Shown here: piece by piece, positions 18,380 through 33,609 of the stretch
How the letters are laid out: every line of letters starts with the position of its first letter
Numbering within the stretch: position 1 is the stretch's first letter
NCBI RefSeq assembly: GCF_002813425.1
Contig: NZ_PHUL01000001.1
Span: 2,301,001 to 2,365,000, forward strand
Origin: Cellulophaga sp. RHA19
Lineage (GTDB): Bacteria; Bacteroidota; Bacteroidia; Flavobacteriales; Flavobacteriaceae
DNA: 64,000 nt
Reading direction: 5' to 3'
Made by a program: the position numbers and the translations under genes
Notes under the pieces: generated by a model
The model's input: the letters and a program-made list of their open reading frames with translations, nothing else
Databases searched by the model: none
What the model was told of the DNA's origin: nothing

Positions 18380-19603
18380 CTATTTAGTAGCTGTAAGCTC
18401 GCATATTTTTACTATAACCTCTACAGCTTTTTCCATACTTTCTACAGGAACATACTCGTATTTACCATGGAAATTATGTCCGCCAGCAAATATATTTGGG
18501 CACGGTAGTCCCATATAACTTAGTTGTGAGCCATCAGTACCACCACGTATAGGCTTTATAATTGGTGTAATATTTAAGGCTTCCATAGCTTCTTTTGCAG
18601 TTTCTACAATATGGTATACAGGCATTACTTTTTCTTTCATATTAAAGTACTGGTCTTTAATAGATAGTTTTATACAGTTGTTGTATTTTTCATTTAATCT
18701 AAAAACTATAGTTTCTAGTGCTTTTTTACGGTCTTCAAAAGAGTTTCTGTCATGGTCTCTAATAATTAGTCCTAATTCAGCATTTTCAATCTCTCCTTTA
18801 ATAGTATGTATATGATAAAAACCTTCTCTACCGGAGGTATGTTCAGGAACCTCTTTATTAGGTAAGGCAGCCATAATTTCTTGGGCAATACCAATGGCGT
18901 TTATCATTTTTCCTTTAGCATAACCTGGGTGTACGCTTTTACCTTGTATTGTAATGTTAGCACCAGCAGCATTAAAGTTTTCATACTCTAACTCGCCAAT
19001 TTGGCTACCATCTATAGTATATGCCCATTCTGCACCAAATTTTTCAACATCAAATTTATGTGCACCACGACCAATTTCTTCGTCAGGAGTAAAACCAACT
19101 CTAATTTTACCGTGCTTAATTTCTGGGTGAGCAATTAAAAATTCCATTGCTGTAACAATTTCTGTAATTCCTGCTTTATCATCTGCACCTAAAAGCGTAG
19201 TACCATCTGTAGTCACAAGGGTCTGACCTTTGTATTGTAATAAATCTTCAAAATAATCTGGAGATAACACAATGTTTTTATCAGCATTTAAAACAATGTC
19301 TTTACCGTCATAATCCCTAATTATTTGCGGATTAACGTTTGTTCCAGAAAAATCTGGAGTAGTATCAAAATGTGCAACAAAACCAATTGTAGGCACTTCT
19401 TTATCTATATTACTAGGTAGTGTTGCCATAATGTACGCATTGTCATCAATAGTAACATCTTCCATTCCTATTTCTTTAAGTTCTGTAACCAACTTATTTG
19501 CTAAATCCCACTGCTTTGCAGTACTAGGAGTTGTGTTAGAACTGGCATCGCTTTGCGTATCAATTTTTACATAACCTAAAAATCTATCTAAAATATCTTG
19601 CAT
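18380..19603 (-). CDS. pepT: Peptidase T (tripeptide aminopeptidase)
   Basis: 407 aa, standard length. M20B metal ligands and catalytic residues: [12 protein letters not shown] (about 81-92), [22 protein letters not shown] with the base and ligand glutamates, and the C-terminal [12 protein letters not shown] and [11 protein letters not shown]. It removes the N-terminal residue from tripeptides in the cytoplasm using two zinc ions. Single gene; its upstream region faces pyrD divergently. Confidence 0.96.
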
Positions 19604-19763
19604 AAGTATTTAATTTACTCAAAAGTACAGCTTATTTAGATTTTTAAAGATAATTAGGCCAGTGTATTTAGTTATAAAAATTGTAAAAACTGTTAATAAA
19701 AACCAATTGTAAAATAGTTCTACATCTTGGTAGTTTGTATTTTTGCCAAAATTTTAAAATTCT

Positions 19764-20801
19764 ATGTACAAAGCTATTATTAGGCCGTTGTTTTTTTTGA
19801 TGGATCCAGAAAAGGTGCATCATTTATCATTTTCATTAATCAAGTTTTTTTCTAAAATAGGTTTTGGAGGTTTATTTAGAGCAATGTACGTAGTTGAAGA
19901 CAAGCGTTTAGAAAAAGAGGTCTTTGGTATTAAATTTAAAAATCCTGTTGGTTTAGCTGCTGGTTTTGATAAAGATGCCAAATTGTATAAAGAGCTATCT
20001 AATTTTGGTTTTGGCTTTATAGAAATAGGAACTTTAACTCCTAAACCACAGTCTGGAAATCCTAAAAAACGCTTGTTTAGGTTAAAAGCAGACAAAGCTA
20101 TTGTAAACCGTATGGGATTTAATAATGGTGGGGTTTTAGAGGCTGTAGAGCGCTTAAAAGAACAGCATAATGTATTAATTGGTGGTAATATTGGTAAAAA
20201 CAAAATTACTCCTAATGATGGTGCAGTAGAGGATTATTTAATTTGTTTTGAAGCGCTGTATCCGCACGTAGATTATTTTGTTGTAAACGTAAGTTCTCCT
20301 AATACACCAGGGTTAAGAGAGTTGCAAGATAAAGAGCCTTTAACAAATTTATTAAATGCATTAGTTACAGAGAATAAAAAGTATGTGACACAAAAAGGAG
20401 TAAAGGCTAAGCCTATTTTGCTTAAAATTGCTCCAGACTTAACAGATGAGCAGTTGTTGGATATTATAGATATTGTAGCAATTACTAAAATTAACGGTGT
20501 TATAGCAACCAATACAACCATAGAGCGTAACAACTTAAAATCGCCAGAAAGTATTACTAAAGAAAATGGAGGTTTAAGTGGTAAGCCATTAACTAGTAGA
20601 AGTACAGAGGTTATTAAGTTTTTAGCAGATAAAAGCAACAAAGCCTTTCCTATTATTGGAGTAGGAGGTATACACTCTGAGAAAGATGCTTTAGAAAAAT
20701 TAGATGCAGGAGCAGACTTAATACAAATATGGACAGGTTTTATTTATGAAGGTCCAGGTCTTGTAAAAAGAATAAATAGAGCAATTTTAGCTAAAAGTTA
20801 G
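19764..20801 (+). CDS. pyrD: Dihydroorotate dehydrogenase (quinone), class 2
   Basis: 345 aa. The N-terminal amphipathic region ([22 protein letters not shown]) for membrane association marks class 2. FMN-site segments are [34 protein letters not shown] and [19 protein letters not shown]. The catalytic-serine segment is [14 protein letters not shown]. It oxidises dihydroorotate to orotate and passes electrons to menaquinone. A TATTTTTG box at 19738-19745 is a candidate -7 element. The last 4 bp overlap the convergent Dabb gene. Confidence 0.97.
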
Positions 20802-21208
20802 TTGGTCCAATAGTCTAACACAAAAACATCGTCTAAAATAGGAGTAAGTTGGGTTACAAAAGCCTTGTGGTCTGGGTGAGGTAAGTAAATAGCGCGGTCT
20901 TCTTCGCTTTTAAAAGTAACAAAAAAGCAGTGTGTAAATCCTTTGCTTAAGCCTTCAGGACTATTATTTAGTCCCCATTCATAATCTTTTATTTGTGATA
21001 TTTTAGATGGTAGCGCACTAAAAGCTTCTTCAATAGCAGTAATTTGTTGCTTTGTGGCATCAGCTTTAAATTTAAAAATTACCACGTGTCTTAATACGCT
21101 ATCTTTAGGTGTAGTCATCATTTTGTTTATGCTTTTATTGTTAGTACTAGTGCTTGCATAGTTGGTGATACTTAGACTAAAGAAAAGTAGTAGAATTATA
21201 TTTTTCAT
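20798..21208 (-). CDS. Exported Dabb-domain (stress-responsive A/B barrel) protein
   Basis: 136 aa. A signal peptide ([19 protein letters not shown]) is followed by a dimeric alpha/beta-barrel domain: [18 protein letters not shown], then [21 protein letters not shown] and [11 protein letters not shown]. The cytoplasmic members have varied or unknown roles; this one is exported. Overlaps the end of pyrD by 4 bp, tail to tail. Confidence 0.85.
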
Positions 21209-21292
21209 TGTTTAGTATTTTCTATAAAGATAAATATATAGAATGTATACTATTATAAAATTTGTACTTTTCATTTTTAAATAACTAAGATT

Positions 21293-21919
21293 TTGAATTA
21301 CGATATACTTATTGCCTTTATGTCTGCCACCGCAGTGTTAGCTTTTTTTCCTGGGCCAGATAATATATACGTGTTAACACAGAGTTTGGTAAACGGTAAA
21401 AAATCTGGTTTAGCAACTGTTGCTGGCCTAATTTCTGGATGTTTAGTACATACAACCTTGTTAGCTTTTGGTGTATCTGCAATAATTAAAGACAATGATA
21501 ATCTATTTTTAGTAATTAAAATATTTGGCGCATGTTACCTGTTTTATATTGCTTTTAAAGTTTTTAAGAGTGATGCTCATCTTATTTTAGGAACCGGTAA
21601 TGCACCCAGAAAAAGTGCATTCTCTTTGTTTAAGCAAGGTTTTGTAATGAATGTGCTAAACCCTAAAGTTGCATTGTTCTTTTTGGCTTTTTTTCCTGGC
21701 TTTTTGTTTAGTGATACTTTAAGTTCAGTAATTCAATTTTATATTTTAGGATTGATTTTTATGTTGGTCTCTTTTTTGATTTTTGCATTAATAGCTGTTT
21801 TAGCTGGTTCAATTTCTAGTTATATAGCTAAGAATGATAAAGTTGGATTGTTTTTTAAATGGATACAAATTGTAGTTTTTATAGGCTTAGGAATTTATAT
21901 TCTTTTATCGGATAAATAA
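21293..21919 (+). CDS. LysE/RhtB-family amino-acid exporter
   Basis: 208 aa, about six membrane helices. The family opening AxxxFFPGPDNIYVLTQSLVNGKKSGLATVAG is split around residues 14-46; further on NVLNPKVALFFLAFFPGF is conserved. It exports amino acids or homoserine lactone-type compounds; substrate unknown. The start appears to be TTG at 21293 (NYDILIAFMSATAVLAFFPGPDN), because beginning at the ATG of 21320 would cut the first membrane helix. It precedes the HMG-CoA lyase gene by 31 bp. Confidence 0.88.
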   Translation: MNYDILIAFMSATAVLAFFPGPDNIYVLTQSLVNGKKSGLATVAGLISGCLVHTTLLAFGVSAIIKDNDNLFLVIKIFGACYLFYIAFKVFKSDAHLILGTGNAPRKSAFSLFKQGFVMNVLNPKVALFFLAFFPGFLFSDTLSSVIQFYILGLIFMLVSFLIFALIAVLAGSISSYIAKNDKVGLFFKWIQIVVFIGLGIYILLSDK

Positions 21920-21950
21920 TAGTAATTTTGAAGAAGTCAACAATTAATTT

Positions 21951-22817
21951 ATGTCTGCTACAGTTAAAATAACAGAATGCCCAAGAGATGCAATGCAAGG
22001 AATAAAAGATTTTATTCCAACAGAGTTAAAGGTAAAATACATACAGTCTTTGCTAGACTGTGGTTTTGATACTATAGACTTTGGTAGTTTTGTGTCTCCA
22101 AAAGCAATTCCGCAAATGGCAGACACCGCAGAGGTTTTAGCAAGCTTGGACTTATCTAGAACTCAGAGTAAACTATTGTCTATAGTAGCCAACGTGCGTG
22201 GAGCACAAGATGCTACTAAACATAAAGAAATAAACTATTTAGGTTATCCTTTTTCTATTTCAGAAAACTTTCAGATGCGTAATACGCATAAAACAATTGC
22301 ACAATCTGTAGAAACACTAAAAGAGATTTTAGACATTGCTAATACTGCAAATAAAGAGGTTGTTACTTATATTTCTATGGGCTTTGGTAACCCTTATGGT
22401 GATCCTTGGAATGTAGAAATTGTTGGTGAATGGACAGAGAAATTAGCAAATATGGGAGTTAATATCATCTCATTATCAGATACAGTTGGTTCTTCTACTC
22501 CGGACGTCATAGATTATTTATTCTCTAATTTAATACCTAAATATCCAGACATTAAATTTGGTGCTCATTTGCATACTACACCAACCAAATGGAAAGAAAA
22601 AGTAGCAGCAGCTTATAATGCTGGCTGCGTTAGATTTGATGGTGCAGTACAAGGTTTTGGTGGTTGCCCTATGGCAAAAGACGATTTAACTGGTAATATG
22701 CCTACCGAAAAAATGCTATCTTATTTTACGGCAGAAAAAGTAAATACCAATGTTAATTGGATGGTCTTTGAGGCTGCATATAATAAGGCAACAGAGCTGT
22801 TTTCTAAGTTTCATTAA
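21951..22817 (+). CDS. mvaB: Hydroxymethylglutaryl-CoA lyase
   Basis: 288 aa, TIM barrel of the DRE-TIM family. Visible segments: ITECPRDAMQGIKDFIP in the place of the DRE-type opening (usually PRDGxQ), FGSFVSPKAIPQMADT, SLSDTVGSSTP, FGAHLHTTP with metal-binding histidines, and FGGCPMAKDDLTGNMPTE with the catalytic Cys. It cleaves HMG-CoA to acetoacetate and acetyl-CoA in leucine breakdown. TAATTTTG at 21923-21930 is a possible -7 box, so it may be transcribed separately from the LysE-type gene. Confidence 0.92.
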   Translation: MSATVKITECPRDAMQGIKDFIPTELKVKYIQSLLDCGFDTIDFGSFVSPKAIPQMADTAEVLASLDLSRTQSKLLSIVANVRGAQDATKHKEINYLGYPFSISENFQMRNTHKTIAQSVETLKEILDIANTANKEVVTYISMGFGNPYGDPWNVEIVGEWTEKLANMGVNIISLSDTVGSSTPDVIDYLFSNLIPKYPDIKFGAHLHTTPTKWKEKVAAAYNAGCVRFDGAVQGFGGCPMAKDDLTGNMPTEKMLSYFTAEKVNTNVNWMVFEAAYNKATELFSKFH

Positions 22818-22873
22818 TTTTCTTTTTTTATTGGTTTTATCTCTATTAATTTTCTAGCGAAAAACACTTTGTT

Positions 22874-22892
22874 TTTATTTATTCTAAATAAA
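22874..22892. promoter_or_regulatory. 19-bp palindromic operator candidate, copy 1 (iron-locus site)
   Basis: TTTATTTATTCTAAATAAA: perfect 8-bp half-sites around TTC. It lies 62 bp before the DUF4856 start, just upstream of a possible promoter (TTG at 22895-22897 and GATATTTG at 22918-22925). The same sequence on the opposite strand occurs at 24248-24266 before the imelysin gene. Fur-like in size and AT content; the identity of the regulator is inference. Confidence 0.6.
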
Positions 22893-22953
22893 CATTGTTT
22901 TGTAATGATCTATTAAAGATATTTGCAAAAAAAAATAATTAAACACTTTTAGT

Positions 22954-24165
22954 ATGAGGTTAAATAAAGTTTTCGTTGGTTTATTTGTAGCAAGTGCAAT
23001 TTTTACTTCTTGTTCTTCAGATGATAATGGAGATGATACATCAGGAGGAAAAAATGTAGTAGCTCCTGCTACTTATGTTTTTGAAAATAATGGAGAGAGT
23101 TCTGTAGATTTTGGTGGTCAAACTACTAGAATTAAAATGGGACAAGAGTTTATCTCTGCTCTTAAAGACAATAGTAAAACAGAAGCAGAATTAGATGCAA
23201 TGTTTACTCATCAAGAGGGAGCTGCAGATTTTTCTGATGAAGATTTAAATAGCTCAGGAAAAAGTATTCGTAGTAAAGTAGCTGCATCTGCAGACTATTT
23301 TTCAGCTAACACAACAGCTTCTATGGCTATAAAAGAGCAATTAGATTTATGGATTAGTGAGCAAGTTACAGATGTTTTTCCTAATTGGGATGTTGATGCT
23401 GTTGCAGGTAGTGCAGGTAAAATACAACAAGCAGGTGGTGGTTCTACAAGATATGTTAACGGTAAAGGTTTAGAGTATAACCAAGCAATTGCAAAATCTA
23501 TTATTGGTGGTTTAATGGTAGACCAAATGCTAAATAATTACTTAAGTACTGCTGTTTTAGACGAAGCAACAAATATTGAAGATAATGATGCAGGTACATT
23601 GGTAGATGGTAAAAACTACACTAATATGGAGCATAAGTGGGATGAAGCTTATGGATATTTATATGGTAATGAAGATACTCCTGCAACACCAGAATTAGGA
23701 AAGGATAGTTTTTTAAATGAATATTTAGGGAAAGTTGAAGAAGATGCAGATTTTGCAGGAATAGCTAATGATGTTTACGAAGCTCTTAAATTAGGTAGGG
23801 CTGCAATTGTGGCTAAAAATTACGTTGTTAGAGATGAGCAGGTAGAAATTATTAGAGAAAAAATATCTAAAGTAATTGCAGTACGTGCTGTACATTACCT
23901 ACAGTCAGGAAAAAATAATTTAACGAGTGATAAAGCTTCTGCTTTTCACGGTTTATCTGAAGCTTTTGGATTTATTAATAGCTTACGTTTTACAAGAGAT
24001 AACCTAACAGGTTCTCCTGTTTTGTCTTCTACAAAAATTGATGGGTATATGGATACGTTAATGGCTGATAATGGCTTTTGGGATGTTACACCAGCTACAT
24101 TGGATATGATTTCTGATGAGATTTCTGCTGCATATGGTTTTACTAAAGAACAAGCCGCAAATTAG
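22954..24165 (+). CDS. DUF4856 surface lipoprotein (metal-uptake locus)
   Basis: 403 aa. The lipobox IFTSC places the lipidated Cys at residue 20; SSDDNGDD follows, matching the Ser-Asp-Asp surface-export signal of Bacteroidota lipoproteins. The rest is a helical domain of the DUF4856 type: PATYVFENNGESSVDFGGQTTRIKMG, then YNQAIAKSIIGGLMVDQMLN and EHKWDEAYGYLYG. DUF4856 proteins usually sit near imelysin genes, as here, and are of unknown function. Rich in Asp and Glu. First gene of the locus; a palindrome lies upstream and a terminator-like hairpin downstream. Confidence 0.85.
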   Translation: MRLNKVFVGLFVASAIFTSCSSDDNGDDTSGGKNVVAPATYVFENNGESSVDFGGQTTRIKMGQEFISALKDNSKTEAELDAMFTHQEGAADFSDEDLNSSGKSIRSKVAASADYFSANTTASMAIKEQLDLWISEQVTDVFPNWDVDAVAGSAGKIQQAGGGSTRYVNGKGLEYNQAIAKSIIGGLMVDQMLNNYLSTAVLDEATNIEDNDAGTLVDGKNYTNMEHKWDEAYGYLYGNEDTPATPELGKDSFLNEYLGKVEEDADFAGIANDVYEALKLGRAAIVAKNYVVRDEQVEIIREKISKVIAVRAVHYLQSGKNNLTSDKASAFHGLSEAFGFINSLRFTRDNLTGSPVLSSTKIDGYMDTLMADNGFWDVTPATLDMISDEISAAYGFTKEQAAN

Positions 24166-24193
24166 AAGTACATATAGTTAAATAGCTGATTTT

Positions 24194-24237
24194 AAAAAAG
24201 TAGTCATATAATAGTTATTTTATGACTACTTTTTTTT
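24194..24237 (+). terminator. Terminator or attenuator between the DUF4856 and imelysin genes
   Basis: A 15-bp perfect stem (AAAAAAGTAGTCATA and its complement) with a 12-base loop and a T run. It lies 28 bp after the DUF4856 stop, so the imelysin gene needs its own promoter or read-through. Confidence 0.8.
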
Positions 24238-24266
24238 ATTTTTGCCTTTTATTTAGAATAAATAAA
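24237..24266 (+). promoter_or_regulatory. Imelysin promoter (-7 box) with palindromic operator, copy 2
   Basis: TATTTTTG at 24237-24244 fits the -7 consensus TAnnTTTG. TTTATTTAGAATAAATAAA at 24248-24266 is the reverse complement of the 22874 site (20 of 21 positions including one flanking base each side) and covers the expected transcription start, a good place for a repressor. No clear -33 element. Confidence 0.6.
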
Positions 24267-24276
24267 ATTAAGGAGA

Positions 24277-25401
24277 ATGAAGAGAGTAGGTTTTATTTTA
24301 TTGATAGCATTAGTGTTTAATGCTTGTAGTAGTTCATCAGATGATGGATCTGATTTGCCAACAGGAGGAAAAGATGATTTTAATAGAGGCGAGTTATTAG
24401 TTAATGTTGCAGATAATATTATTATTCCTGCTTATGAAGATTTATCTACTAAACTTAATGATTTAGAGGATGAAAAAGATAATTTTATAACTACGCCTTC
24501 AGAAGCTAACTTAGTTACTTTAAGAGAAAAATGGTTGTCTGCATACAAGGTTTGGCAATCTGTAGAATTATTTAATATAGGTAAAGCCGAAGAAATTAAC
24601 TACGGTTTTCAAATGAACATATACCCAACTACGGTAGAGGATATAGAAAGTAATGTTAGTTCTGGAACTTACGATTTAACGCATCCTAATAATAATGATG
24701 CAGTTGGTTTCCCAGCTTTAGATTATTTATTAAATGGTTTAGCAGACACAGACGCAGAGATTTTAGAAAAATATACAAATGCTACTTCTGGATCTGGATA
24801 TAAAACTTATTTGTCTGACTTGGTAATCCAAATGAATACATTAACCGATACTGTGTTAAACGATTGGAAAAATGGGTTTAGAGATACTTTTGTTGCAAGC
24901 ACAGAAAATACAGCAACAAGCTCATTTAACAAGTTAGCAAACGATTTTGTTTTCTATTTTGAAAAAGGGTTAAGAGCTAATAAAGTAGGTATTCCTGCAG
25001 GTGTTTTTTCTACAGATCCGTTACCAACTAAGGTAGAGGCGTTTTATAATAATGAAGTTTCAAAAGAATTATTGGTAGAGGCTTTAAGTAGTGTAAAAGA
25101 CTTTTTTAATGGTAACACATATAATGCAACTACATCTGGTATAGGTTTTTCAGATTACCTAGATTATTTAAATAATATTACTGAGGGAGAAGATTTAAAA
25201 ACCATTATTAATAGTGGTATAGATACGGCAAATGCTGCTATTCTAAATTTAAATGCAAGTTTATCTGAACAAGTAGAGACAGATAATAAAAAAATGACAG
25301 AAGCTTATGATGCTTTACAAAGAGTTGTTGTTTTAATAAAAGTAGATATGTTGCAAGCTTTTAGTGTAAGTGTAGACTATACTGATGCTGACGGAGATTA
25401 A
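24277..25401 (+). CDS. Imelysin-family lipoprotein (IrpA/EfeO-related)
   Basis: 374 aa. The lipobox FNAC gives Cys17, followed by SSSSDDGSD, a surface-export-type signal. The imelysin (M75-like) fold is seen in FNRGELLVNVADNIIIPAYEDL, LREKWLSAYKVWQSVELFNIG, FPALDYLLNG and YFEKGLRANKVGIPAG. Imelysins are helical-bundle proteins tied to iron uptake; peptidase activity is doubtful. The family's GxHxxE motif is replaced here by GFPALDYLL. It probably binds iron or an iron carrier and hands it to the TonB receptor encoded downstream. Confidence 0.9.
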   Translation: MKRVGFILLIALVFNACSSSSDDGSDLPTGGKDDFNRGELLVNVADNIIIPAYEDLSTKLNDLEDEKDNFITTPSEANLVTLREKWLSAYKVWQSVELFNIGKAEEINYGFQMNIYPTTVEDIESNVSSGTYDLTHPNNNDAVGFPALDYLLNGLADTDAEILEKYTNATSGSGYKTYLSDLVIQMNTLTDTVLNDWKNGFRDTFVASTENTATSSFNKLANDFVFYFEKGLRANKVGIPAGVFSTDPLPTKVEAFYNNEVSKELLVEALSSVKDFFNGNTYNATTSGIGFSDYLDYLNNITEGEDLKTIINSGIDTANAAILNLNASLSEQVETDNKKMTEAYDALQRVVVLIKVDMLQAFSVSVDYTDADGD

Positions 25402-25422
25402 TGCAATAAAAAATTAGTAATT

Positions 25423-25457
25423 AAAGATTCTCTAAGATGTTTAGAGAATCTTTTTTT
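25423..25457 (+). terminator. Terminator or attenuator between imelysin and the carboxylase-like gene
   Basis: A 13-bp perfect stem (AAAGATTCTCTAA / TTAGAGAATCTTT) with a 5-base loop and T run. The next ATG is only 9 bp after the T run, so an mRNA that reads through would carry the hairpin right at the ribosome site. Confidence 0.8.
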
Positions 25458-25465
25458 GTGTTTAT

Positions 25466-26845
25466 ATGGTAAGTAATTTTAAAACATATTTAAATAAGAC
25501 TAGTCACGCTGCTCCTTTGGTAGTGTTTAGGATATGTTTTGGTTTATTAATGCTGCAAAGCATAGTTAGGTTTTGGGCTAAAGGGTGGATTTATGACCTT
25601 TACATTCAGCCTAAATTTCATTTTACATATTATAATTTTGAGTGGGTTAAACCTATAGGTAATTACACATATCTTCTTTTTATTATTTGTGCCGTTGCAG
25701 CAATTTTAATAGCTATAGGATATAAATATAGGCTTGCTGTTTTTTTATTCTTTATAAGCTTTACATACATAGAGTTAATGGATAAAACTAGCTACTTAAA
25801 TCATTATTATTTTGTTAGTGTTTTAAGTTTTTTAATGTTTTTTATACCTGCAAATGCATATTTTTCTGTAGATGCTTTGGTAAGGAAAAAGGCATTTAAA
25901 TACGTTCCTAGTTATACTATAGACAGTATTAAACTTTTGTTATCAGTAGTGTATTTTTATGCAGGTTTAGCAAAAATAAATTCAGATTGGCTTTTTAGAG
26001 CTATGCCGCTAAAAATATGGCTGCCCTCTAAGTATGATATTCCTTTTATAGGTAATTCTTTGTTGCAACAAGAGTGGATGCACTATTTCATGAGTTGGTC
26101 AGGAATGTTGTATGATCTTTTTATTCCCTTTTTACTGCTTTACAAAAGAACAAGAATCCTAGCCTTTGTTGCAGTGGTAGTTTTTCATTTGTTTACAAGA
26201 ATATTGTTTCCAATTGGGATGTTCCCGTATATAATGATTGTAAGTAGTCTTATCTTTTTTAGTGACAACTTTCACATAAAAATCATCAATTACATAAGAA
26301 AAATTATTTCTAAGTTACCTGTTGCTATAAATAAAAATATAGCTGTTGTAATGGATAAAAATATATTCTCTATCAATAAAAAGAGATTAACATTAGGTGT
26401 TTTAGCTGTGTTTTTTACCATCCAGTTATTACTGCCATTTAGATATTTACTATATCCTGGAGAACTTTTTTGGACCGAAGAAGGATACCGTTTTTCTTGG
26501 CGTGTAATGTTAGTGGAAAAAATGGGTTACGCTAATTTTAAAATTGTAGATAGTAAAACTAAAAAGCAGTTTTACGTAGACAATGCAGACTTTTTAACCC
26601 CTTTTCAAGAAAAACAAATGAGTACTCAGCCAGATTTTATTGTGCAATACGCGCATTATTTAGGAGATCATTTTAAAAAACAAAACCATAAAAATATTCA
26701 GGTTTTTGTAGAGAGTTATGTTGCATTTAATGGCAGGTTAAGCAGGCCGTATATAAATCCTAAGGTAGATTTATATAAAGAAAAAGATTTATTAAAACAC
26801 AAAACGTGGATTTTACCATTTAACGATGAAATTAAAGGATTTTAA
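25466..26845 (+). CDS. Vitamin K-dependent gamma-carboxylase (GGCX) homologue, HTTM membrane protein
   Basis: 459 aa, several membrane helices in the first 330 residues, then a soluble C-terminal part. By recall it aligns with human gamma-glutamyl carboxylase over most of its length: MDKTSYLNH (105-113) corresponds to the segment with human His160, and VYFYAGLAKINSDW (162-175) to that with the catalytic base Lys218, here K170. IGMFPYIM and the late WILP also match. GGCX oxidises vitamin K hydroquinone to drive carboxylation of Glu to Gla. Flavobacteria make menaquinone, so a quinol cofactor exists. The bacterial function is unproven. The 3' end overlaps the TonB receptor start by 20 bp, so the two are translationally coupled. 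Confidence 0.85.
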   Translation: MVSNFKTYLNKTSHAAPLVVFRICFGLLMLQSIVRFWAKGWIYDLYIQPKFHFTYYNFEWVKPIGNYTYLLFIICAVAAILIAIGYKYRLAVFLFFISFTYIELMDKTSYLNHYYFVSVLSFLMFFIPANAYFSVDALVRKKAFKYVPSYTIDSIKLLLSVVYFYAGLAKINSDWLFRAMPLKIWLPSKYDIPFIGNSLLQQEWMHYFMSWSGMLYDLFIPFLLLYKRTRILAFVAVVVFHLFTRILFPIGMFPYIMIVSSLIFFSDNFHIKIINYIRKIISKLPVAINKNIAVVMDKNIFSINKKRLTLGVLAVFFTIQLLLPFRYLLYPGELFWTEEGYRFSWRVMLVEKMGYANFKIVDSKTKKQFYVDNADFLTPFQEKQMSTQPDFIVQYAHYLGDHFKKQNHKNIQVFVESYVAFNGRLSRPYINPKVDLYKEKDLLKHKTWILPFNDEIKGF

Positions 26846-29249
26846 AATAGTAGTACTACTTATATTTTGTAACGCATCTCTTTATGCCCAGTATAAAGTT
26901 TCTGGAACCGTTACATCTAAAGAAAATAATTTACCTATAAATGGTGTAGAAATTTTTAATAAAGCCAAGGGTAAGCTTTCTGTTACCAATAACAAAGGTT
27001 ATTATGAGTTTACTACAGATGATAAACAATTAGAAATTGTGTTTTTTTCTTATGAGTATAACATAGAAGAAGAAATAGTAAATGTGGTAGGTAATACTGT
27101 ATTAAACAAACAACTATCTGCTGTAGAAATAGAATTAACGGAAGTTGAAGTTGTAGCAAGAAAGGCTCAAATTTTTAACTTAAAGCGGTTACAGGATGTT
27201 GTGGGTACATCTATATATGCAGGTAAAAAAACAGAGGTTGTTTTGGTAGGCGAGTCTGTAGCAAATTTAGCATCTAATAATGCTAGGCAAATATATAGTC
27301 AGGTTGTTGGTTTAAATATTTTTCAGAATGATGACGCTGGTTTGCAATTAAATATTGGAGGTAGAGGATTAGATCCTAATAGAACATCTAACTTTAATAC
27401 AAGACAAAATGGGTATGATATTAGTGCAGATGTTTTAGGGTATCCAGAGAGTTATTATACACCACCAGCAGAAGCTTTAGAAGAAATCCAGATAATTAGA
27501 GGTGCTGCTTCTTTACAGTACGGAACTCAGTTTGGTGGACTGGTTAATTTTATTACAAAAAAACCAAATCCGACTAAAGAAATAGAAGTTTTAACAAGGA
27601 ATACTATTGGTAGTAACAATTTATACACAAACTACACTAGTGTAAACGGAACTAAAAATAAGGTTAGTTATTACGCAAGTTTTAACTTTAAAGAAGGAGA
27701 TGGTTTTAGGCCAAATTCATACTTTAACTCTAAAAACGCTTTTTTACATTTAGGGTATCAATTAAATACTAAAACTAAGTTAGAGGCAGAAATAACGTAC
27801 TTAGACTATTTAGCTCAGCAAGCAGGTGGTTTAACAGATGCTATGTTTGCAGAAAACCCATACCAAAGTAATAGAGCAAGAAACTGGTTTGCTGTAAATT
27901 GGTTATTATATAGCATAAAACTAAAACATAAGTTTACAGAAAATGCAAGTTTGTCGTTTAACTTTTTTGGATTAAATGCATCTAGAAACGCTTTGGGTTT
28001 TAGAACCAATAGAGTAGACCAAGTAGACACAAATGAAGAAAGAGATTTAATAACTGGTGACTTTAATAATTTTGGGTTTGAAACTAAGTTTTTAAACAAA
28101 TACAGCTTATTTGGTAAAAAGGCAACTTACTTGGTAGGTGCTAAATTTTACAAAGCAAATAATACATCTGTACAAGGACCTGGAACAAATGGTAGTGATG
28201 CTAATTTTTCTTCAGCAATAATAGATTATCCAAATTACGCAGCACAGTCTAATTATAAAAACCCAAATTTAAATGTTGCTTTTTTTGCAGAAAATATACT
28301 TTATATAAAAGATAATTGGTCTGTTACACCAGGCTTACGTGTAGAGTATATAAAAACGGAAAGTGATGGTTTCTTTAAAAATATAAATACAGATGCTGCA
28401 GGTAACGTTATTTTAAATGAGACAGTAGAAAGCAGTGATAGCAACACTCGTTCTTTTGTGTTGTTTGGTTTAGGGTCTAGTTACAAATTAAATGACTACG
28501 TAGAAATTTATGGTAATGCATCTCAAAACTATAGATCGGTAACGTTTTCAGACTTAAATATTGTTAATCCTTCTTTTATAATAGGAGATTTATCAGACGA
28601 AAAAGGATATACTTTAGATCTTGGTTTTAGGGGTAACTATAAAAATTACATCTCTTACGATGCTGGTATTTTTGGTCTTTTTTATAATGATAGAATAGGT
28701 TTATTAACAAAGGAATTAGATGATGGTAGCGTAAAGCAAGAAAGAACCAATGTGGGTGATGCACGTATTGTAGGAGTAGAGTCTTTAGTAGATTTTAATT
28801 TTAAAAAGATATTAAAAATGAATAGTAATTATAGCTTTAACTATTTTATTAATTCATCCATAATAAAATCTGAATACACAAAGTCACAACAAAACGGAAT
28901 TATAGGAAAAAGTGTAGAATTTGTACCAGATTTTAATTTTAAAACAGGTGTAAAATTTGGATATAAAAATTTATTATCTAGCATACAATACACAAGCTTA
29001 ACAGAGCAATTTACAGATGCTAGTAACTCCAGGGAAGCTAGTTTAAGTGGTGTTAATGGTGTATTGCCAAAGTATAGTGTTTTAGATGTTTCTTTATCAT
29101 ATACCTACAAGTTTTTAAAGTTAGAAACAGGAATTAATAATGTATTAGATAAAAAATACTTTACAAGAAGGGCAACTGGGTATCCAGGACCAGGTATTAT
29201 ACCTTCATCAAACAGAAACTATTACGCTACATTACAAATGAAATTTTAA
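26826..29249 (+). CDS. TonB-dependent outer-membrane receptor (FecA-like)
   Basis: 807 aa. Signal peptide (KIVVLLIFCNASLYAQ), CarboxypepD_reg-like domain at about 22-110 (YKVSGTVTSKENNLPINGVEIFN), plug at about 125-250 (VGTSIYAGKKTEVV, LNIGGRGLDPNRTSNF, IQIIRGAASLQYGTQFGG), then a beta-barrel ending in FYATLQMKF-type aromatic residue (actual end NYYATLQMKF). The plug resembles FecA/ferric-siderophore receptors. With imelysin beside it, iron or an iron chelate is the likely cargo. It starts inside the carboxylase-like gene (20-bp overlap). Confidence 0.93.
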   Translation: MKLKDFKIVVLLIFCNASLYAQYKVSGTVTSKENNLPINGVEIFNKAKGKLSVTNNKGYYEFTTDDKQLEIVFFSYEYNIEEEIVNVVGNTVLNKQLSAVEIELTEVEVVARKAQIFNLKRLQDVVGTSIYAGKKTEVVLVGESVANLASNNARQIYSQVVGLNIFQNDDAGLQLNIGGRGLDPNRTSNFNTRQNGYDISADVLGYPESYYTPPAEALEEIQIIRGAASLQYGTQFGGLVNFITKKPNPTKEIEVLTRNTIGSNNLYTNYTSVNGTKNKVSYYASFNFKEGDGFRPNSYFNSKNAFLHLGYQLNTKTKLEAEITYLDYLAQQAGGLTDAMFAENPYQSNRARNWFAVNWLLYSIKLKHKFTENASLSFNFFGLNASRNALGFRTNRVDQVDTNEERDLITGDFNNFGFETKFLNKYSLFGKKATYLVGAKFYKANNTSVQGPGTNGSDANFSSAIIDYPNYAAQSNYKNPNLNVAFFAENILYIKDNWSVTPGLRVEYIKTESDGFFKNINTDAAGNVILNETVESSDSNTRSFVLFGLGSSYKLNDYVEIYGNASQNYRSVTFSDLNIVNPSFIIGDLSDEKGYTLDLGFRGNYKNYISYDAGIFGLFYNDRIGLLTKELDDGSVKQERTNVGDARIVGVESLVDFNFKKILKMNSNYSFNYFINSSIIKSEYTKSQQNGIIGKSVEFVPDFNFKTGVKFGYKNLLSSIQYTSLTEQFTDASNSREASLSGVNGVLPKYSVLDVSLSYTYKFLKLETGINNVLDKKYFTRRATGYPGPGIIPSSNRNYYATLQMKF

Positions 29250-29257
29250 TTTTTATA

Positions 29258-29755
29258 ATGACCTACAACGGACTACTAAGTACTTTTCCATCAGAAGTTA
29301 AGCTGTTTATAGGAGCTTTTGTGGTAATCTTATCTATTGGTTTTTATACAGGTCTTTTATTTATTAATGAAACCACAGAAGCAAAACCAGCAGCCATTAC
29401 AGAAAACTATTTAGGTAATGAAGAAGATGAAAATGCAGATGTGATGAAGTTTAAGAAAAGTAAGCGAGAAATGCTTACCACTGTGCATACACATATATTG
29501 TCTATGTCTTTTATCTTCTTTTTGTTAGGAGTTTTGGTATGGCTTACAAAACTTCCTAAAAAGCTAAAGCTGTTTTTAACAATGGAGCCATTTTTATCTG
29601 TATTACTAACATTTGGTGGTATTTATGTGCTTTGGTGTGGCATACTTTGGATGAAATATGTTATTATGATATCTGGTATATTAATGACCACTACTTTTAC
29701 AGCTTCTGTAATGCTTGTTTTGTATCAATTGTGTAAAAAGCAAACTACAGCCTAA
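29258..29755 (+). CDS. Small four-helix membrane protein of the metal-uptake locus
   Basis: 165 aa. Predicted helices near 14-35, 80-97, 107-127 and 132-156. Between helices 1 and 2 is an acidic loop (YLGNEEDENADV, 51-62), then VHTHILSM with His77 and His79 at the membrane edge. Loop acidity and His pair suggest metal or heme contact; no enzyme motif. It starts 8 bp after the TonB receptor stop, clearly the same transcript. Possible roles are a quinone or heme membrane partner, or a substrate of the carboxylase-like protein. I do not recognise the family. Confidence 0.78.
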   Translation: MTYNGLLSTFPSEVKLFIGAFVVILSIGFYTGLLFINETTEAKPAAITENYLGNEEDENADVMKFKKSKREMLTTVHTHILSMSFIFFLLGVLVWLTKLPKKLKLFLTMEPFLSVLLTFGGIYVLWCGILWMKYVIMISGILMTTTFTASVMLVLYQLCKKQTTA

Positions 29756-29789
29756 TTTTTGACGTATAGTTTATTAGATTTATACTACT

Positions 29790-30494
29790 ATGCGTTACTT
29801 TTTAATTCTATTTTTTTTCTTTTTTTATATTGATAGCTCCGCTGCAGAATGGAAGAGTCTTAAACAATATGAAAAATTAACCGGAAGAAGTACACTTTTA
29901 CATAAAGATTGGCTTAAAAAAGACCGATTAAAAAATACGGTTACTTGGCAACAGGCAAACAGCTTCAACCTAAAAAATAATTTATTTTTAGAATATCAAA
30001 CTATAAAACAAAGAAGAGATTTTTATAAGTGGTATGCATTGTCTGTAGAAGAAAAAGGGCATAAAGTTGTGTGGCCAAGAATGGCTCATTTTATATCTTC
30101 CAAGTTAAATTTAGCAACTAGTTTTCCCTATAAGTTATTTATAAAAAAGGAAGTTTTAGTTTCATCAGAAAAAGGAAGTGAAAAAGTATTTAATTCGGCT
30201 TTTAAAAGTATGTATAGTTTGTATGCTATGCCCAACGCTTTAAGTGTAGCAGAAAGTCTTGCTTGGGATAAAGCTATTTTACACGAGGAGCAGTACTTAT
30301 GGATAGATCCTATTTATATAGAAATGAGTGCTAAAACCTTAAAAAGAATAGAGCGTATAGCTAAAGGAAAATCTGTTTATGCTTTGGTTGTGTCTAAAAA
30401 AATACGCTTTAAAGGAGACTTGTTAAAACCAATAGAGAGGTATACCTATGCTATGCAAACGTTAAGAAAACATTGTGAAAACTCTTATTGGTAA
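29790..30494 (+). CDS. Exported protein of unknown function
   Basis: 234 aa. Signal peptide RYFLILFFFFFYIDSSAAEW, then a helical, basic, Trp- and Lys-rich sequence: LTGRSTLLHKDWLKKDR, WQQANSFNL, FYKWYALSVEEKGHKVVWP, LKRIERIAKGKSVYALVV. Similar proteins occur in flavobacteria, sometimes labelled as insecticidal toxin complex proteins; I see nothing here that supports a toxin role. It begins 34 bp after the metal-uptake locus and could be its last gene, but the link is positional only. Confidence 0.65.
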   Translation: MRYFLILFFFFFYIDSSAAEWKSLKQYEKLTGRSTLLHKDWLKKDRLKNTVTWQQANSFNLKNNLFLEYQTIKQRRDFYKWYALSVEEKGHKVVWPRMAHFISSKLNLATSFPYKLFIKKEVLVSSEKGSEKVFNSAFKSMYSLYAMPNALSVAESLAWDKAILHEEQYLWIDPIYIEMSAKTLKRIERIAKGKSVYALVVSKKIRFKGDLLKPIERYTYAMQTLRKHCENSYW

Positions 30495-30502
30495 ATATGT
30501 GG

Positions 30503-30530
30503 TTGTTTACATATATAAATTGTATATTTG
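30503..30530 (+). promoter_or_regulatory. guaB promoter
   Basis: TTG at 30503-30505 and TATATTTG at 30523-30530 with 17 bp between. The -7 element fits TAnnTTTG exactly; the spacing is slightly short. Confidence 0.5.
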
Positions 30531-30533
30531 CAC

Positions 30534-30552
30534 GCAATTAATCCTTAATTGC
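30534..30552 (+). promoter_or_regulatory. Inverted repeat in the guaB leader, 1 bp before the ATG
   Basis: GCAATTAA-TCC-TTAATTGC: a perfect 8-bp inverted repeat with a 3-base spacer, ending at 30552; the ATG is at 30554. In RNA it would form a hairpin across the ribosome-landing area; in DNA it lies just after the predicted transcription start, where an operator would work. Confidence 0.5.
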
Positions 30553-30553
30553 T

Positions 30554-32026
30554 ATGCAAGCTCACCTAAATAAAATTGTTGGAGAAGGTCTTACTTATGA
30601 CGACGTACTCCTAGTTCCTGCTTTTTCAGAAGTGCTTCCTAGAGAAGTAAGTATAAAAGCAAAATTCACTAAAAACATAACTATTAATGTACCAATTGTC
30701 TCTGCGGCAATGGATACCGTTACAGAATCTCGTATGGCCATTGCTATGGCGCAAGAAGGCGGTATTGGTGTGTTACATAAAAATATGACTATTGCAGAGC
30801 AAGCTGCAAAGGTGCGTAAGGTTAAGCGTGCAGAGAGTGGTATGATTATAGATCCGGTTACTTTACCGTTAGATTCTGTTGTACGCGATGCAAAAGCTAA
30901 TATGAAAGAGTTTAGTATTGGTGGTATTCCAATAGTAGATAAAGAAGGAAAGTTAATTGGTATTGTTACCAATAGAGATCTTCGTTTTGAAAAAAATAAT
31001 GACAGACCAATTTCTGAAGTTATGACTTCTAAAAATTTGGTAACTGTTAGTGAAGGTACTTCTTTGGCACAAGCAGAAGATATATTACAAGAAAATAAAA
31101 TTGAAAAGCTACCAGTTGTAGATAAAGACAACAAATTGGTAGGTTTAATTACGTTTAGAGATATTACAAAGCTTACGTTAAAACCAATAGCAAATAAAGA
31201 TACATATGGTAGGCTTAGGGTTGCTGCTGCTTTAGGTGTTACTGCAGATGCAGTAGAGCGTGCAGAAGCATTAGTAAATGCAGGCGTAGATGCAGTAATT
31301 ATAGATACGGCTCACGGACATACTAAAGGTGTGGTGGCTGTGTTAAAAGAGGTTAAAAAGAAATTTCCAGACTTAGATGTTATTGTGGGTAACATAGCAA
31401 CTGCAGAGGCTGCTAAATACTTAGTAGAAGCAGGTGCAGATGCTGTAAAAGTTGGTATTGGACCAGGATCTATTTGTACAACAAGGGTTGTTGCTGGTGT
31501 TGGTTTTCCTCAGTTTTCTGCTGTATTAGAGGTTGCTGCAGCTATTAAAGGTAGTGGAGTTCCTGTAATTGCAGATGGCGGAATCAGATATACTGGTGAT
31601 ATACCTAAAGCTATTGCAGCTGGTGCAGATACTGTAATGTTAGGCTCTTTATTGGCTGGTACAAAAGAATCTCCAGGAGAAACTATTATTTATGAAGGAA
31701 GAAAGTTTAAATCTTACCGTGGTATGGGTTCTGTAGAAGCTATGAAACAAGGTAGTAAAGATCGTTACTTCCAAGATGTTGAAGATGATATTAAAAAATT
31801 AGTACCAGAAGGTATTGTAGGTCGTGTACCTTACAAAGGTGAGTTATACGAGAGTATTCATCAATTTGTTGGTGGTTTACGTGCAGGTATGGGCTACTGT
31901 GGTGCAAAAGATATAGAAACGCTAAAAGAAACAGGTAAATTTGTTAAAATTACCGCTAGTGGTATTAATGAAAGTCACCCTCATGATGTTACAATTACTA
32001 AAGAGTCTCCTAATTATAGCAGATAA
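30554..32026 (+). CDS. guaB: IMP dehydrogenase
   Basis: 490 aa. TIM barrel interrupted by a pair of CBS domains (about 95-205: [20 protein letters not shown], then [22 protein letters not shown]). The active loop [17 protein letters not shown] contains the catalytic Cys. NAD- and IMP-binding segments [19 protein letters not shown] and [10 protein letters not shown] follow, with the mobile flap around 395-430. Converts IMP to XMP, the first committed step to GMP. The leader carries a hairpin and the gene is followed by a terminator, so it is probably monocistronic. Confidence 0.98.
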
Positions 32027-32045
32027 ACTTTATTTTTTATAATAC

Positions 32046-32087
32046 AAATGCAGTATAGCTTTTTTAGTTATGCTGCATTTTTTTTTG
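32046..32087 (+). terminator. Intrinsic terminator of guaB
   Basis: AAATGCAGTATA pairs with TATGCTGCATTT (one G-U wobble), followed by a long T run. Confidence 0.82.
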
Positions 32088-32114
32088 ATCAAATTTTCTT
32101 ATTTGCACATATTA

Positions 32115-32130
32115 ATCGTAATATTGCAAT
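32115..32130. promoter_or_regulatory. Putative ArsR operator
   Basis: ATCGTAATATTGCAAT, a 16-bp near-palindrome (12 of 16 symmetric positions, form ATyGyAATATTrCrAT). It lies 15 bp before the arsR start and includes a TAATATTG sequence that resembles a -7 box, so a bound repressor would block RNA polymerase. Confidence 0.6.
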
Positions 32131-32144
32131 AAACAAATTAAGTT

Positions 32145-32477
32145 ATGGGTTTAGCCAAAACAGAAATATTTACAGAGGACCAAAATCAGATAGCAATTTA
32201 TGCTAAAGCCTTTAGTCACCCAGCACGTGTAGCTATACTTCAACATTTATTTAAAATTAATGCCTGTATCTGCGGAGATTTAGTTGGAGTAATTGGTTTG
32301 GCGCAACCAACAATTTCTCAGCATTTAAAAGAATTAAAATTATTAGGATTAATAAAAGGAAATGTAGAAGGAACTAGTGTTTGTTATTGCATACATCCAG
32401 AGAATTGGAAAAAAATGAAAGCTGTAATGAATCAGTTTTTAGATCAAGATTTAGAAGTAGACAATGGTTGTTGTTAA
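32145..32477 (+). CDS. arsR: ArsR-family arsenic-responsive repressor
   Basis: 110 aa. Winged helix-turn-helix of the ArsR/SmtB type: FSHPARVAILQHL, then VIGLAQPTISQHLKELKLLGLI as recognition region. C41 and C43 (ACICGDL) stand where ArsR binds arsenite at the DNA-binding helix. The protein ends in NGCC, two vicinal cysteines that may add a third thiol ligand. First gene of the arsenic operon; it should repress its own promoter and release on As(III). Confidence 0.92.
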   Translation: MGLAKTEIFTEDQNQIAIYAKAFSHPARVAILQHLFKINACICGDLVGVIGLAQPTISQHLKELKLLGLIKGNVEGTSVCYCIHPENWKKMKAVMNQFLDQDLEVDNGCC

Positions 32478-32499
32478 GTATAATTTAAAATAGAATAAT

Positions 32500-32970
32500 A
32501 TGAAATTATCAGAAGTTAAAGCAAATTTAAAGAGTTTAGATAAAATTGCATTTCAATTACCTAATGGTGATTTAGTACCTAGTCATTTTCATGTAACAGA
32601 AGTGGGTAAGGTTACAAAAAACTTTATAGACTGTGGAGGTACAGTTAGGAATGAGGAAGCTGTAAGTTTTCAATTATGGAATGAGCAAGACTACGACCAT
32701 AGATTGCACCCAGAAAAATTGGTTAGTATTATAGAATTATCTGAAAAAGTTTTAGGAATTGAAGATTTAGATGTAGAAGTAGAATACCAAGGAGATACTA
32801 TTGGTAGGTACGGATTAGATTTTGACGGAACTAACTTTTTGCTAATATCAAAATTAACAGACTGTTTAGCTAAAGATAAATGTGGCATTCCAGAAAAGAA
32901 AGAAAAAGTAAAATTGGCTAGTATACAAGCGTCAGGTAATAGTTGCGAACCAAATTCTGGTTGTTGCTAG
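32500..32970 (+). CDS. DUF6428 family protein of the arsenic operon
   Basis: 156 aa, cytoplasmic. Opens MKLSEVKANLKSLDKIAFQLPNGDLVPSHFHVTEVG, the pattern of the DUF6428 family, found in Bacteroidota arsenic operons. Cys residues occur in DCGG, DCLAKDKCG and the C-terminal SCEPNSGCC. The vicinal Cys pair at the end parallels that of ArsR next door, so it may bind arsenite as a metallochaperone (inference). 22 bp after arsR and 24 bp before the arsenate-reductase-like gene. Confidence 0.85.
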   Translation: MKLSEVKANLKSLDKIAFQLPNGDLVPSHFHVTEVGKVTKNFIDCGGTVRNEEAVSFQLWNEQDYDHRLHPEKLVSIIELSEKVLGIEDLDVEVEYQGDTIGRYGLDFDGTNFLLISKLTDCLAKDKCGIPEKKEKVKLASIQASGNSCEPNSGCC

Positions 32971-32994
32971 AGTTAAATAATTAAATATTTTAAA

Positions 32995-33609
32995 ATGATT
33001 TTTGAAGAAATTAATTCCTTTATCAGTAATTTAAAAGATGTAGCTGTTAGTGACGAGCGAAAAGTAGTATTGCAACCATTGGCTGACTTTGTGCAAGATA
33101 AAGTAGAAAAGGACCAAGAGGTACGCCTAAATTTTATATGCACACATAACTCTAGAAGAAGTCATTTATCTCAGGTTTGGGCACAAACAATGGCGGCATA
33201 TTTTAATATTAAAAATGTTACGTGCTATTCTGGTGGTACAGAAGCTACTGCGCTTTTTCCTATGGTGGCAAAAACGCTAAGTAATACAGGTTTTAAAATT
33301 GAAAAGTTAGCAGAAACAGACAATCCTATCTATAGTATTAAGTATGATGTAAATGCAGTGCCAATTATTGGTTTCTCTAAAAAGTATGATGATGATTTTA
33401 ATCCTGATTCAGAATTTGCAGCAATAATGACTTGTTCACAAGCAGATGGTGGTTGCCCTTTTATTGCAGGAGCAGAAAAACGTATTCCTATAACTTTTGA
33501 AGATCCAAAAGCTTTTGATGGTACTCCACAACAAGCAGAAAAATACCAAGAGAGAAGTCAACAAATAGCTTCAGAAATGTTTTATTTATTTTCAAATATT
33601 AAAAAATAA
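32995..33609 (+). CDS. arsC: Arsenate-reductase-like low-molecular-weight phosphatase-fold protein
   Basis: 204 aa. A C-x5-R loop is seen in [19 protein letters not shown] (nucleophile Cys near residue 47), as in thioredoxin-coupled ArsC and LMW tyrosine phosphatases. The C-terminal Cys pair in [13 protein letters not shown] may act as resolving thiols, and [12 protein letters not shown] holds the general acid Asp-Pro. It likely reduces arsenate to arsenite for export by the next gene's product. Longer than typical ArsC (130-140 aa) because of an N-terminal helical extension. Overlaps acr3 by 1 bp. Confidence 0.88.

Follow-up and report, generated by a model that had tools for sequence, protein, structure and literature searches.

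A GGCX-like enzyme in a conserved Bacteroidota operon of DUF4856, imelysin and TonB-dependent receptor genes, very likely an iron operon

Gene content and conservation of the operon

The stretch of DNA analysed here (the window) comprises 64,000 nucleotides of Cellulophaga sp. RHA19 (contig NZ_PHUL01000001.1, positions 2,301,001 to 2,365,000), whose genome is a single contig of 3.93 Mb. It carries a gene for a membrane protein related to human gamma-glutamyl carboxylase (GGCX), which stands between genes for two lipoproteins and a TonB-dependent receptor (Table 1); this operon and its enzyme are our subject. A preliminary description of the same DNA had listed five open reading frames (ORFs) on one strand, and all five were found at their places, together with the exact 20-bp overlap between the GGCX-like and receptor genes and the exact 8-bp gap between the receptor gene and the small gene behind it. 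ORFs in our scripts start at the first possible start codon, which may overstate overlaps and shift promoter distances.

Table 1. Genes and putative regulatory sites of the operon in the window.
Feature	Position	Strand	Description
Fur-box-like site	22871..22889	+	64 bp 5' of the DUF4856 gene; 15.2 bits
DUF4856 lipoprotein	22954-24165	+	403 aa; Pfam PF16148, 519 bits
Second Fur-box-like site	24251..24269	+	just 5' of the imelysin gene; 15.0 bits
Imelysin-fold lipoprotein	24277-25401	+	374 aa; PF09375 (Peptidase_M75/imelysin), 85.5 bits; GxPxxD replaces GxHxxE
GGCX-like membrane protein	25466-26845	+	459 aa; PF05090 HTTM, 257.1 bits; PF22777 VKGC lumenal, 208.3 bits
TonB-dependent receptor	26826-29249	+	807 aa; PF00593, PF07715, PF13715 (plug and beta-barrel)
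Small membrane-type protein	29258-29755	+	165 aa; accessory, possibly co-transcribed in the window

Both domain scores of the GGCX-like protein exceed their cut-offs of 27.7 bits. The Pfam scan gave zero matches for the small protein, and no di-haem peroxidase partner was found among the seven window proteins scanned.

The preliminary description treated five families as one linked system and proposed a survey of Bacteroidota genomes for their co-occurrence. This survey has been run, and the linkage holds for four of them (DUF4856, imelysin, GGCX-like protein and receptor), a set present in many Bacteroidota, while the small membrane gene is not part of the core. Apart from the window, only four loci (L031, L032, L033 and L113) have this small gene immediately behind the receptor gene, and we therefore regard four genes as the conserved unit; in L183 a gene for the small protein adjoins a GGCX-like gene on the opposite strand.

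The order DUF4856–imelysin–GGCX–receptor is found in 74 of the 80 best named loci among the matches listed, and it is retained while the flanking genes vary. Two of the six exceptions end at contig edges (L094, L118), one is without DUF4856 (L078), two are without imelysin and receptor (L130, L133), and one has a hydroxylase gene in the GGCX slot (L149). The nearest named loci by flanking genes, among the matches listed, are those of Maribacter (L096, L113). Since these 80 loci were picked by similarity to the operon-type enzyme, the genome samples give less biased figures. In the phylum sample of 198 genomes, GGCX relatives occur in 46, DUF4856 in 33 and both in 31, and the coordinates place DUF4856 next to GGCX in all 31; the chance of this co-occurrence is about 1e-22 under an independence of genomes that does not hold. 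Among close relatives, 41 of 60 genomes have a GGCX relative, and two kinds can be separated by identity to the window protein, one of 45 to 96% (operon types and the L052 gene) and the other of 31 to 39%. Within L031-L054 all but one of the 24 loci show the four-gene order, L054, where the GGCX gene is broken by stops, being counted among the 23.

When 140 loci selected by GGCX similarity were pooled (141 GGCX ORFs, the broken L054 gene counting as two), all three partners surrounded 110 of the ORFs. Only DUF4856 was missing from five by the adjacency measure, and 24 had no adjoining imelysin, 15 of which belong to the second, less similar kind (L056-L070). In L159 and L161 the lipoprotein 5' of imelysin resembles, by eye, a diverged DUF4856. 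In 100 of 115 operons the GGCX and receptor ORFs overlap when each is begun at its earliest possible start codon. Conservation of the operon is strong, and the four-gene arrangement is far beyond chance.

Some members of these families were met outside the standard arrangement. Two DUF4856 genes, at L171:6916-8124 and L172:6203-7501, have neither GGCX nor imelysin in their vicinity; the one in L172 adjoins a TonB receptor gene. Directly 3' of the receptor gene, some operons encode a small protein with the haem-binding domain PF14376 (L034:10934-11392, by Pfam) or, by similarity or eye, a protein like it (L036:10891-11340, L177:7495-7935, L193:7500-7949, L194:8376-8825).

The lipobox cysteine is conserved in both lipoproteins (Cys20 in all 112 DUF4856 and Cys17 in all 118 imelysin sequences). 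The model of the DUF4856 protein (pLDDT, predicted local distance difference test, 92.6) gave no PDB match by Foldseek at E<=0.001, and that of the imelysin (pLDDT 91.7) matched 3pf0 (E 1.4e-9), 7xrx (1.5e-8) and 4ecg (2.0e-8), so that the window protein is predicted to have the known imelysin fold. The histidine of the GxHxxE motif is lost in the operon imelysins (Pro in 97/116), and the glutamate is aspartate in 109/116; Lys355 is kept in 117 of 117. Among sequences with a pattern-found cysteine (100 of 111 DUF4856, 94 of 116 imelysin), an acidic stretch behind it, with at least three Asp or Glu in ten residues, is seen in 83/100 and 42/94, respectively. Such acidic stretches look like the signal by which surface lipoproteins of this phylum are exported, which would be a simpler reading of them than as substrates for carboxylation. 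The nearest NCBIfam models of the receptor are TIGR01783 and FecA, both below cut-off (for FecA, NF041676, 103.2 bits against 1100).

Promoter sites and the link to iron

The preliminary description assigned the locus to metal uptake, and for iron this is supported by Fur-box-like sites and by the response to iron of the corresponding genes of Riemerella anatipestifer, as tabulated in the available part of PMC5609570. The absence of linkage in other genomes and the absence of a metal response had been named as observations that would speak against the description; neither was found, because the four-family linkage is conserved and a link to iron is seen.

As the Fur box we used the 19-letter box given for R. 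anatipestifer in the available part of that study, and a hit was counted from 16 matching letters upwards. Such a site precedes the DUF4856 gene in 100 of 118 operons, a set that comprises the window, 111 operons of the GGCX type and six whose slot lacks GGCX, compared with 1 of 134 control promoters. The controls came from the same loci, where the regions before two flanking genes were used, and only promoters of at least 150 bases were counted. The first site of the window promoter matches 15 of the 19 letters and is the best of the 64-kb window by a matrix made from the 118 promoters, this site included; the other site of Table 1, which lies outside that set, ranks second, and the third scores only 8.5 bits. 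Both score below 21.9 bits, the median over the operons. In a shuffle test of 24 promoters, the window gave p 0.043, and L032, L033, L047 and L054 were not distinct (p >0.1). The genome has four matches to the Fur family.

In wild-type R. anatipestifer the ratios of iron-depleted to iron-replete expression are 2.11 for RAYM_09779, 2.64 for 09784, 3.07 for 09789 and 2.41 for 09794, and all four are listed among the Fur-regulated genes (Table 4 in the available part of PMC5609570). Two further reports can be likened by protein type only: cultures of Tenacibaculum maritimum grown at low iron yield a vesicle fraction rich in a FecA homologue and four imelysin-like lipoproteins (PMC10288586, as far as its accessible text goes), and an imelysin-like transcript of Bizionia argentinensis is lowered when a regulator of iron homeostasis is mutated (accessible text of PMC9478572). 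We consider the locus very likely to be an iron operon, and its control by Fur, predicted from the promoter sites, to be probable.

The GGCX-like enzyme and its proposed replacement

Human GGCX aligns to the window protein over residues 52-505 (best E 3.3e-45), with seven residues of the window protein remaining behind the end of the alignment, and the median length of operon-type proteins is 454 aa compared with 758 aa for the human enzyme (PDB chain 13ib_A). Residues were counted over 117 operon-type sequences, GGCX ORFs of 350 aa or less being excluded; an earlier alignment took ORFs above 400 aa, and the broken L054 gene is thus not in it. In human numbering, Asn159, His160, Lys218, Trp223, Gly259, Phe286, His287, Phe294, Phe299 and Trp399 are unchanged in all 117, and Tyr395 is kept in 89 and replaced by Phe in 28. 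Changed in every sequence are Asn158 (to Leu), Leu394 (to Gly), Met401 (to Val) and Asn290 (to Thr), as well as Arg436 (Gln in 108, Met in 6, Glu in 3) and Lys217 (Ala in 116, Ala or Thr in all).

According to the accessible part of the cryo-EM study of the human enzyme (PMC12589487), Lys218 is the catalytic base and Lys217 couples the domains, K217A impairing the binding of the substrate protein while sparing catalysis. Asn158, Tyr395 and Arg436 are glutamate-binding residues of the human enzyme, and the residues of its quinone pocket are kept in the operon proteins. Residues 510, 513, 532, 558 and 591 and the arch, which the same text names, lie beyond residue 505. Because the bacterial protein stops near this point, it lacks the arch and the remainder of the propeptide-binding domain; from the alignment we would place a lobe border at its end. 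No match to VKOR (PF07884, E<=0.001) was found in the single-contig genome. Menaquinone is the quinone of these bacteria. As judged from sequence, the enzyme appears suited to quinol oxygenation, with an apparatus for protein glutamate that is altered and partly missing, and it is likely to be an active oxygenase.

In a quick tree of 77 rows, a subset of those at hand, the four-gene type, a second operon type and the L052 gene form one group (SH-like approximate likelihood ratio support, SH-aLRT, 98), with the paralogues outside. The second type is a second iron-type operon: in seven loci (L055, L179-L184) the order is imelysin–DHOR–imelysin–GGCX, where DHOR is a di-haem oxidoreductase (PF06537), imelysin stands directly 5' of GGCX, and Asn159, His160, Lys218 and the quinone pocket are kept. 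At L052:7678-9048 a lone GGCX-like gene lies amid the usual flanking genes, with Asn159, His160, Gly259, Phe286 and His287 changed and Lys218 kept. The Cellulophaga genome itself has a second GGCX-like gene outside the window (L060:7890-9200), where Tyr395 is His, between genes that by eye are ribF-like and serS-like. Paralogues of this type form a separate subfamily and are present in many of the Flavobacteriaceae genomes searched.

In a few lineages an unrelated, oxygen-using enzyme seems to take the place of the GGCX-like protein. In Tenacibaculum dicentrarchi (L149) a fatty-acid hydroxylase gene (PF04116) stands between the imelysin and receptor genes, with a GGCX gene 3' of the receptor, and the order DUF4856–imelysin–hydroxylase–receptor is shared by L178 (from genome G033). 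The replacing enzyme matches PF04116 with 80 bits, and its three His boxes are intact in all four aligned sequences. Hydroxylases of this family usually act on lipids. In 149 genomes of the family, the hydroxylase (orthologues at E<=1e-40) occurs in 3, DUF4856 in 45, and operon-type GGCX beside DUF4856 in 42; the DUF4856 genomes without operon-type GGCX (G019, G033 and G266) are exactly the holders of the hydroxylase, and the chance of this exact set is 1.9e-6 if the genomes are taken as independent. Among 397 genomes it was found in seven from four genera, none of which has operon-type GGCX, two having only the paralogue and six having DUF4856; in the seventh, 75% complete, the hydroxylase gene lies 5' of a receptor gene at a contig edge. 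The gene occupies the slot in L149 and L178, precedes the receptor in L195, lies on the opposite strand beside the operon in L177, L193 and L194, and is elsewhere in the genome for L176 and L192. Across 39 genomes from the phylum sample, matches were no better than 9e-22, distant relatives (E<=1e-10) being present in 30.

Interpretation and nearest known systems

We suggest, with a confidence that is about evenly balanced, that the locus is a Fur-controlled iron-acquisition operon of Bacteroidota whose GGCX-like enzyme modifies a membrane-linked partner. Starting from the computed operon conservation, promoter sites, catalytic residues and complementary presence of the hydroxylase, we infer the protein locations, the substrate, the reaction and the direction of iron flow as follows. 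Under iron limitation the receptor, the imelysin and DUF4856 lipoproteins and the inner-membrane GGCX-like enzyme would be made; the two lipoproteins, probably at the outer membrane, would capture or hand over an iron complex. The enzyme most likely oxygenates menaquinol at a pocket presumed to face the periplasm, and this oxygenation would serve to modify a membrane-linked partner needed for uptake; this partner may be a lipoprotein, the acyl anchor of one, a lipid or the quinone itself. As a relative of the di-iron fatty-acid hydroxylases occurs in its stead in some lineages, the enzyme is probably not a propeptide-guided gamma-carboxylase, and an oxygen-dependent membrane modification replaceable by a hydroxylase is favoured over obligatory formation of gamma-carboxyglutamate (Gla). 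A bolder version, to which we give little weight, is that iron uptake in Bacteroidota employs chemistry of the vitamin K type: menaquinol and O2 would yield an iron ligand derived from oxygen, either Gla or a hydroxylated residue or lipid, which is placed on the lipoproteins of the uptake system or on their anchors. Where GGCX was lost, the di-iron hydroxylase would make a functionally equivalent ligand, and two unrelated oxygenases would then carry out the same tailoring of an iron-capture complex.

Carboxylation of glutamate to Gla in the imelysin, DUF4856 protein, receptor or small protein, to give metal-chelating residues for iron capture, is a reading that follows the preliminary description and seems doubtful, even though Lys218, His160 and Asn159 are invariant, Tyr395 is kept in most sequences, and the acidic loop of the small protein is preserved in six of six. 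Also in its favour, Glu229 and Glu254 are present in all 117 imelysins of four-gene operons, both glutamates recur in the seven imelysins paired with GGCX in the DHOR type, and nine DHOR-linked imelysins without GGCX have, at these positions, Asp in eight and mostly Gln (six). Were the enzyme there to form Gla on these lipoproteins, one would expect some glutamates to be conserved in its presence and to vary freely in its absence; in six operons without GGCX in the slot (five from genomes without operon-type GGCX, and L149, which keeps GGCX 3' of the receptor), both Glu229 and Glu254 are retained in six of six, and no glutamate conserved to at least 90% in the imelysin or DUF4856 proteins is lost. 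Since all 16 imelysins of the GxHxxE type have His at position 254, we read Glu229 and Glu254 as ligand-site residues common to operons with either enzyme. The test is small, and glutamates may persist for other reasons. In addition, no 12-residue stretch of the window's two lipoproteins has more than three Glu, and the genome is without a VKOR match. With a protein ending near residue 505, Arg436 replaced mostly by Gln and Tyr395 by Phe in a part of the sequences, Asn158, Leu394 and Lys217 replaced throughout, a hydroxylase in its stead in some lineages and no conserved glutamate lost, Gla formation is possible but not supported.

Modification of a periplasmic small molecule or siderophore-like ligand, which would release or bind iron, would suit the adjoining receptor with its sub-cut-off siderophore-receptor and FecA similarity and a slot that an oxygen-using enzyme of another family can occupy; we hold it improbable, as an inspection by eye of the ORFs of at least 90 aa in window positions 19000-34000 revealed no biosynthesis genes, and the preference of PF04116 enzymes for lipids also speaks against it. 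That the protein is a menaquinol-binding electron donor (a ferric reductase) or a scaffold, with oxygen chemistry incidental, would agree with the invariant quinone pocket and with the di-haem protein of the DHOR-type imelysin operons, but the invariance of the Lys218 base and of Asn159 and His160 goes beyond the needs of binding alone and makes this very improbable. Hardly credible is a mere passenger gene: the L060 paralogue does lie between housekeeping-looking genes of the same genome, but the operon order is kept across the phylum despite differing flanks, and a non-homologous enzyme is present where GGCX is missing.

Several observations weigh against an iron operon with a Fur-controlled, hydroxylase-replaceable enzyme. 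In R. anatipestifer these genes still respond to low iron when fur is mutated (2.70 to 3.07), and the operon promoter is absent from the Fur-box table and the gel-shift promoter set in the available part of PMC5609570, so Fur may not act alone there. The replacement comes from few lineages (the seven genomes of four genera, and T. dicentrarchi, L149, which holds both enzymes); the hydroxylase gene does not lie near the operon in the two genomes of genus g152, and the DUF4856 genomes G166 and G185 have neither enzyme. The search of 397 genomes scored at most five candidates in each, so that some orthologues may be missed. Finally, among the GGCX-like genes without imelysin and receptor (L052, L130, L133 and L165), only that of L052 has a decayed active site.

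The replacement enzyme limits the possible reactions of the GGCX-like protein. The GGCX family would gain a testable bacterial role, with a probably iron-regulated operon, defined partners and a natural replacement enzyme, which may reveal a function of its fold outside animal blood clotting; an active enzyme would mean oxygen-dependent quinol chemistry within an iron-uptake system. DUF4856, a family without known function, becomes tied to iron. In the literature searched, the combination is described only as entries in the Riemerella table (available part of PMC5609570).

Further along the window, 34 bp 3' of the small membrane gene, a 234-aa protein without Pfam or NCBIfam match is encoded at 29790-30494, with homologues close to the operon in L031, L032, L078, L080, L085, L086 and L116. 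An arsenic-resistance-like cluster follows at 32145-34649, comprising by eye an ArsR-like regulator, a small protein, an arsenate reductase-like protein and an ACR3-like transporter.

Among the known systems, human GGCX shares with the operon enzyme the HTTM and lumenal domains, the Lys218 base, Asn159 and His160, and the quinone pocket; it differs in having the C-terminal part from about residue 506, whereas the operon proteins lack this part, have a changed glutamate pocket and Lys217, are without a VKOR match and belong to an iron operon. Leptospira interrogans has a GGCX homologue presumed to be acquired by transfer (available part of PMC4555120). We liken it to the operon enzyme as a bacterial relative, by description only. 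The Leptospira protein is reportedly an epoxidase without detectable carboxylase activity, and we know of no Gla substrates for it. The replacing enzyme resembles the ornithine lipid hydroxylase OlsE, two sequences scoring 44.4 and 58.8 bits, far under the OlsE cut-off of 475 bits, and it is absent from the window itself.

The closest counterpart is the R. anatipestifer set RAYM_09779-09794, annotated as a TonB receptor, a vitamin K-dependent gamma-carboxylase, an imelysin and a hypothetical protein, in which the available part of PMC5609570 tabulates the carboxylase gene without discussing the enzyme; the identity of RAYM_09794 as DUF4856 is putative. Imelysins are likewise found in iron-regulated operons in the Fur-regulated PA4370-PA4373 of Pseudomonas and in EfeUOB, and a second imelysin without the GxHxxE histidine is common to the known imelysin operons and those described here; the words carboxylase and vitamin are absent from the accessible text on these operons (PMC3143127). 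The IPPA-like imelysins described there (GxxxxE) also lose the histidine, but the operon imelysins have in addition Asp for Glu (109/116). Compared with the known imelysin operons, the four-gene type is without a di-haem protein and has the DUF4856 lipoprotein and the receptor, whereas the seven-locus DHOR type has the di-haem protein and carries GGCX as its last gene.

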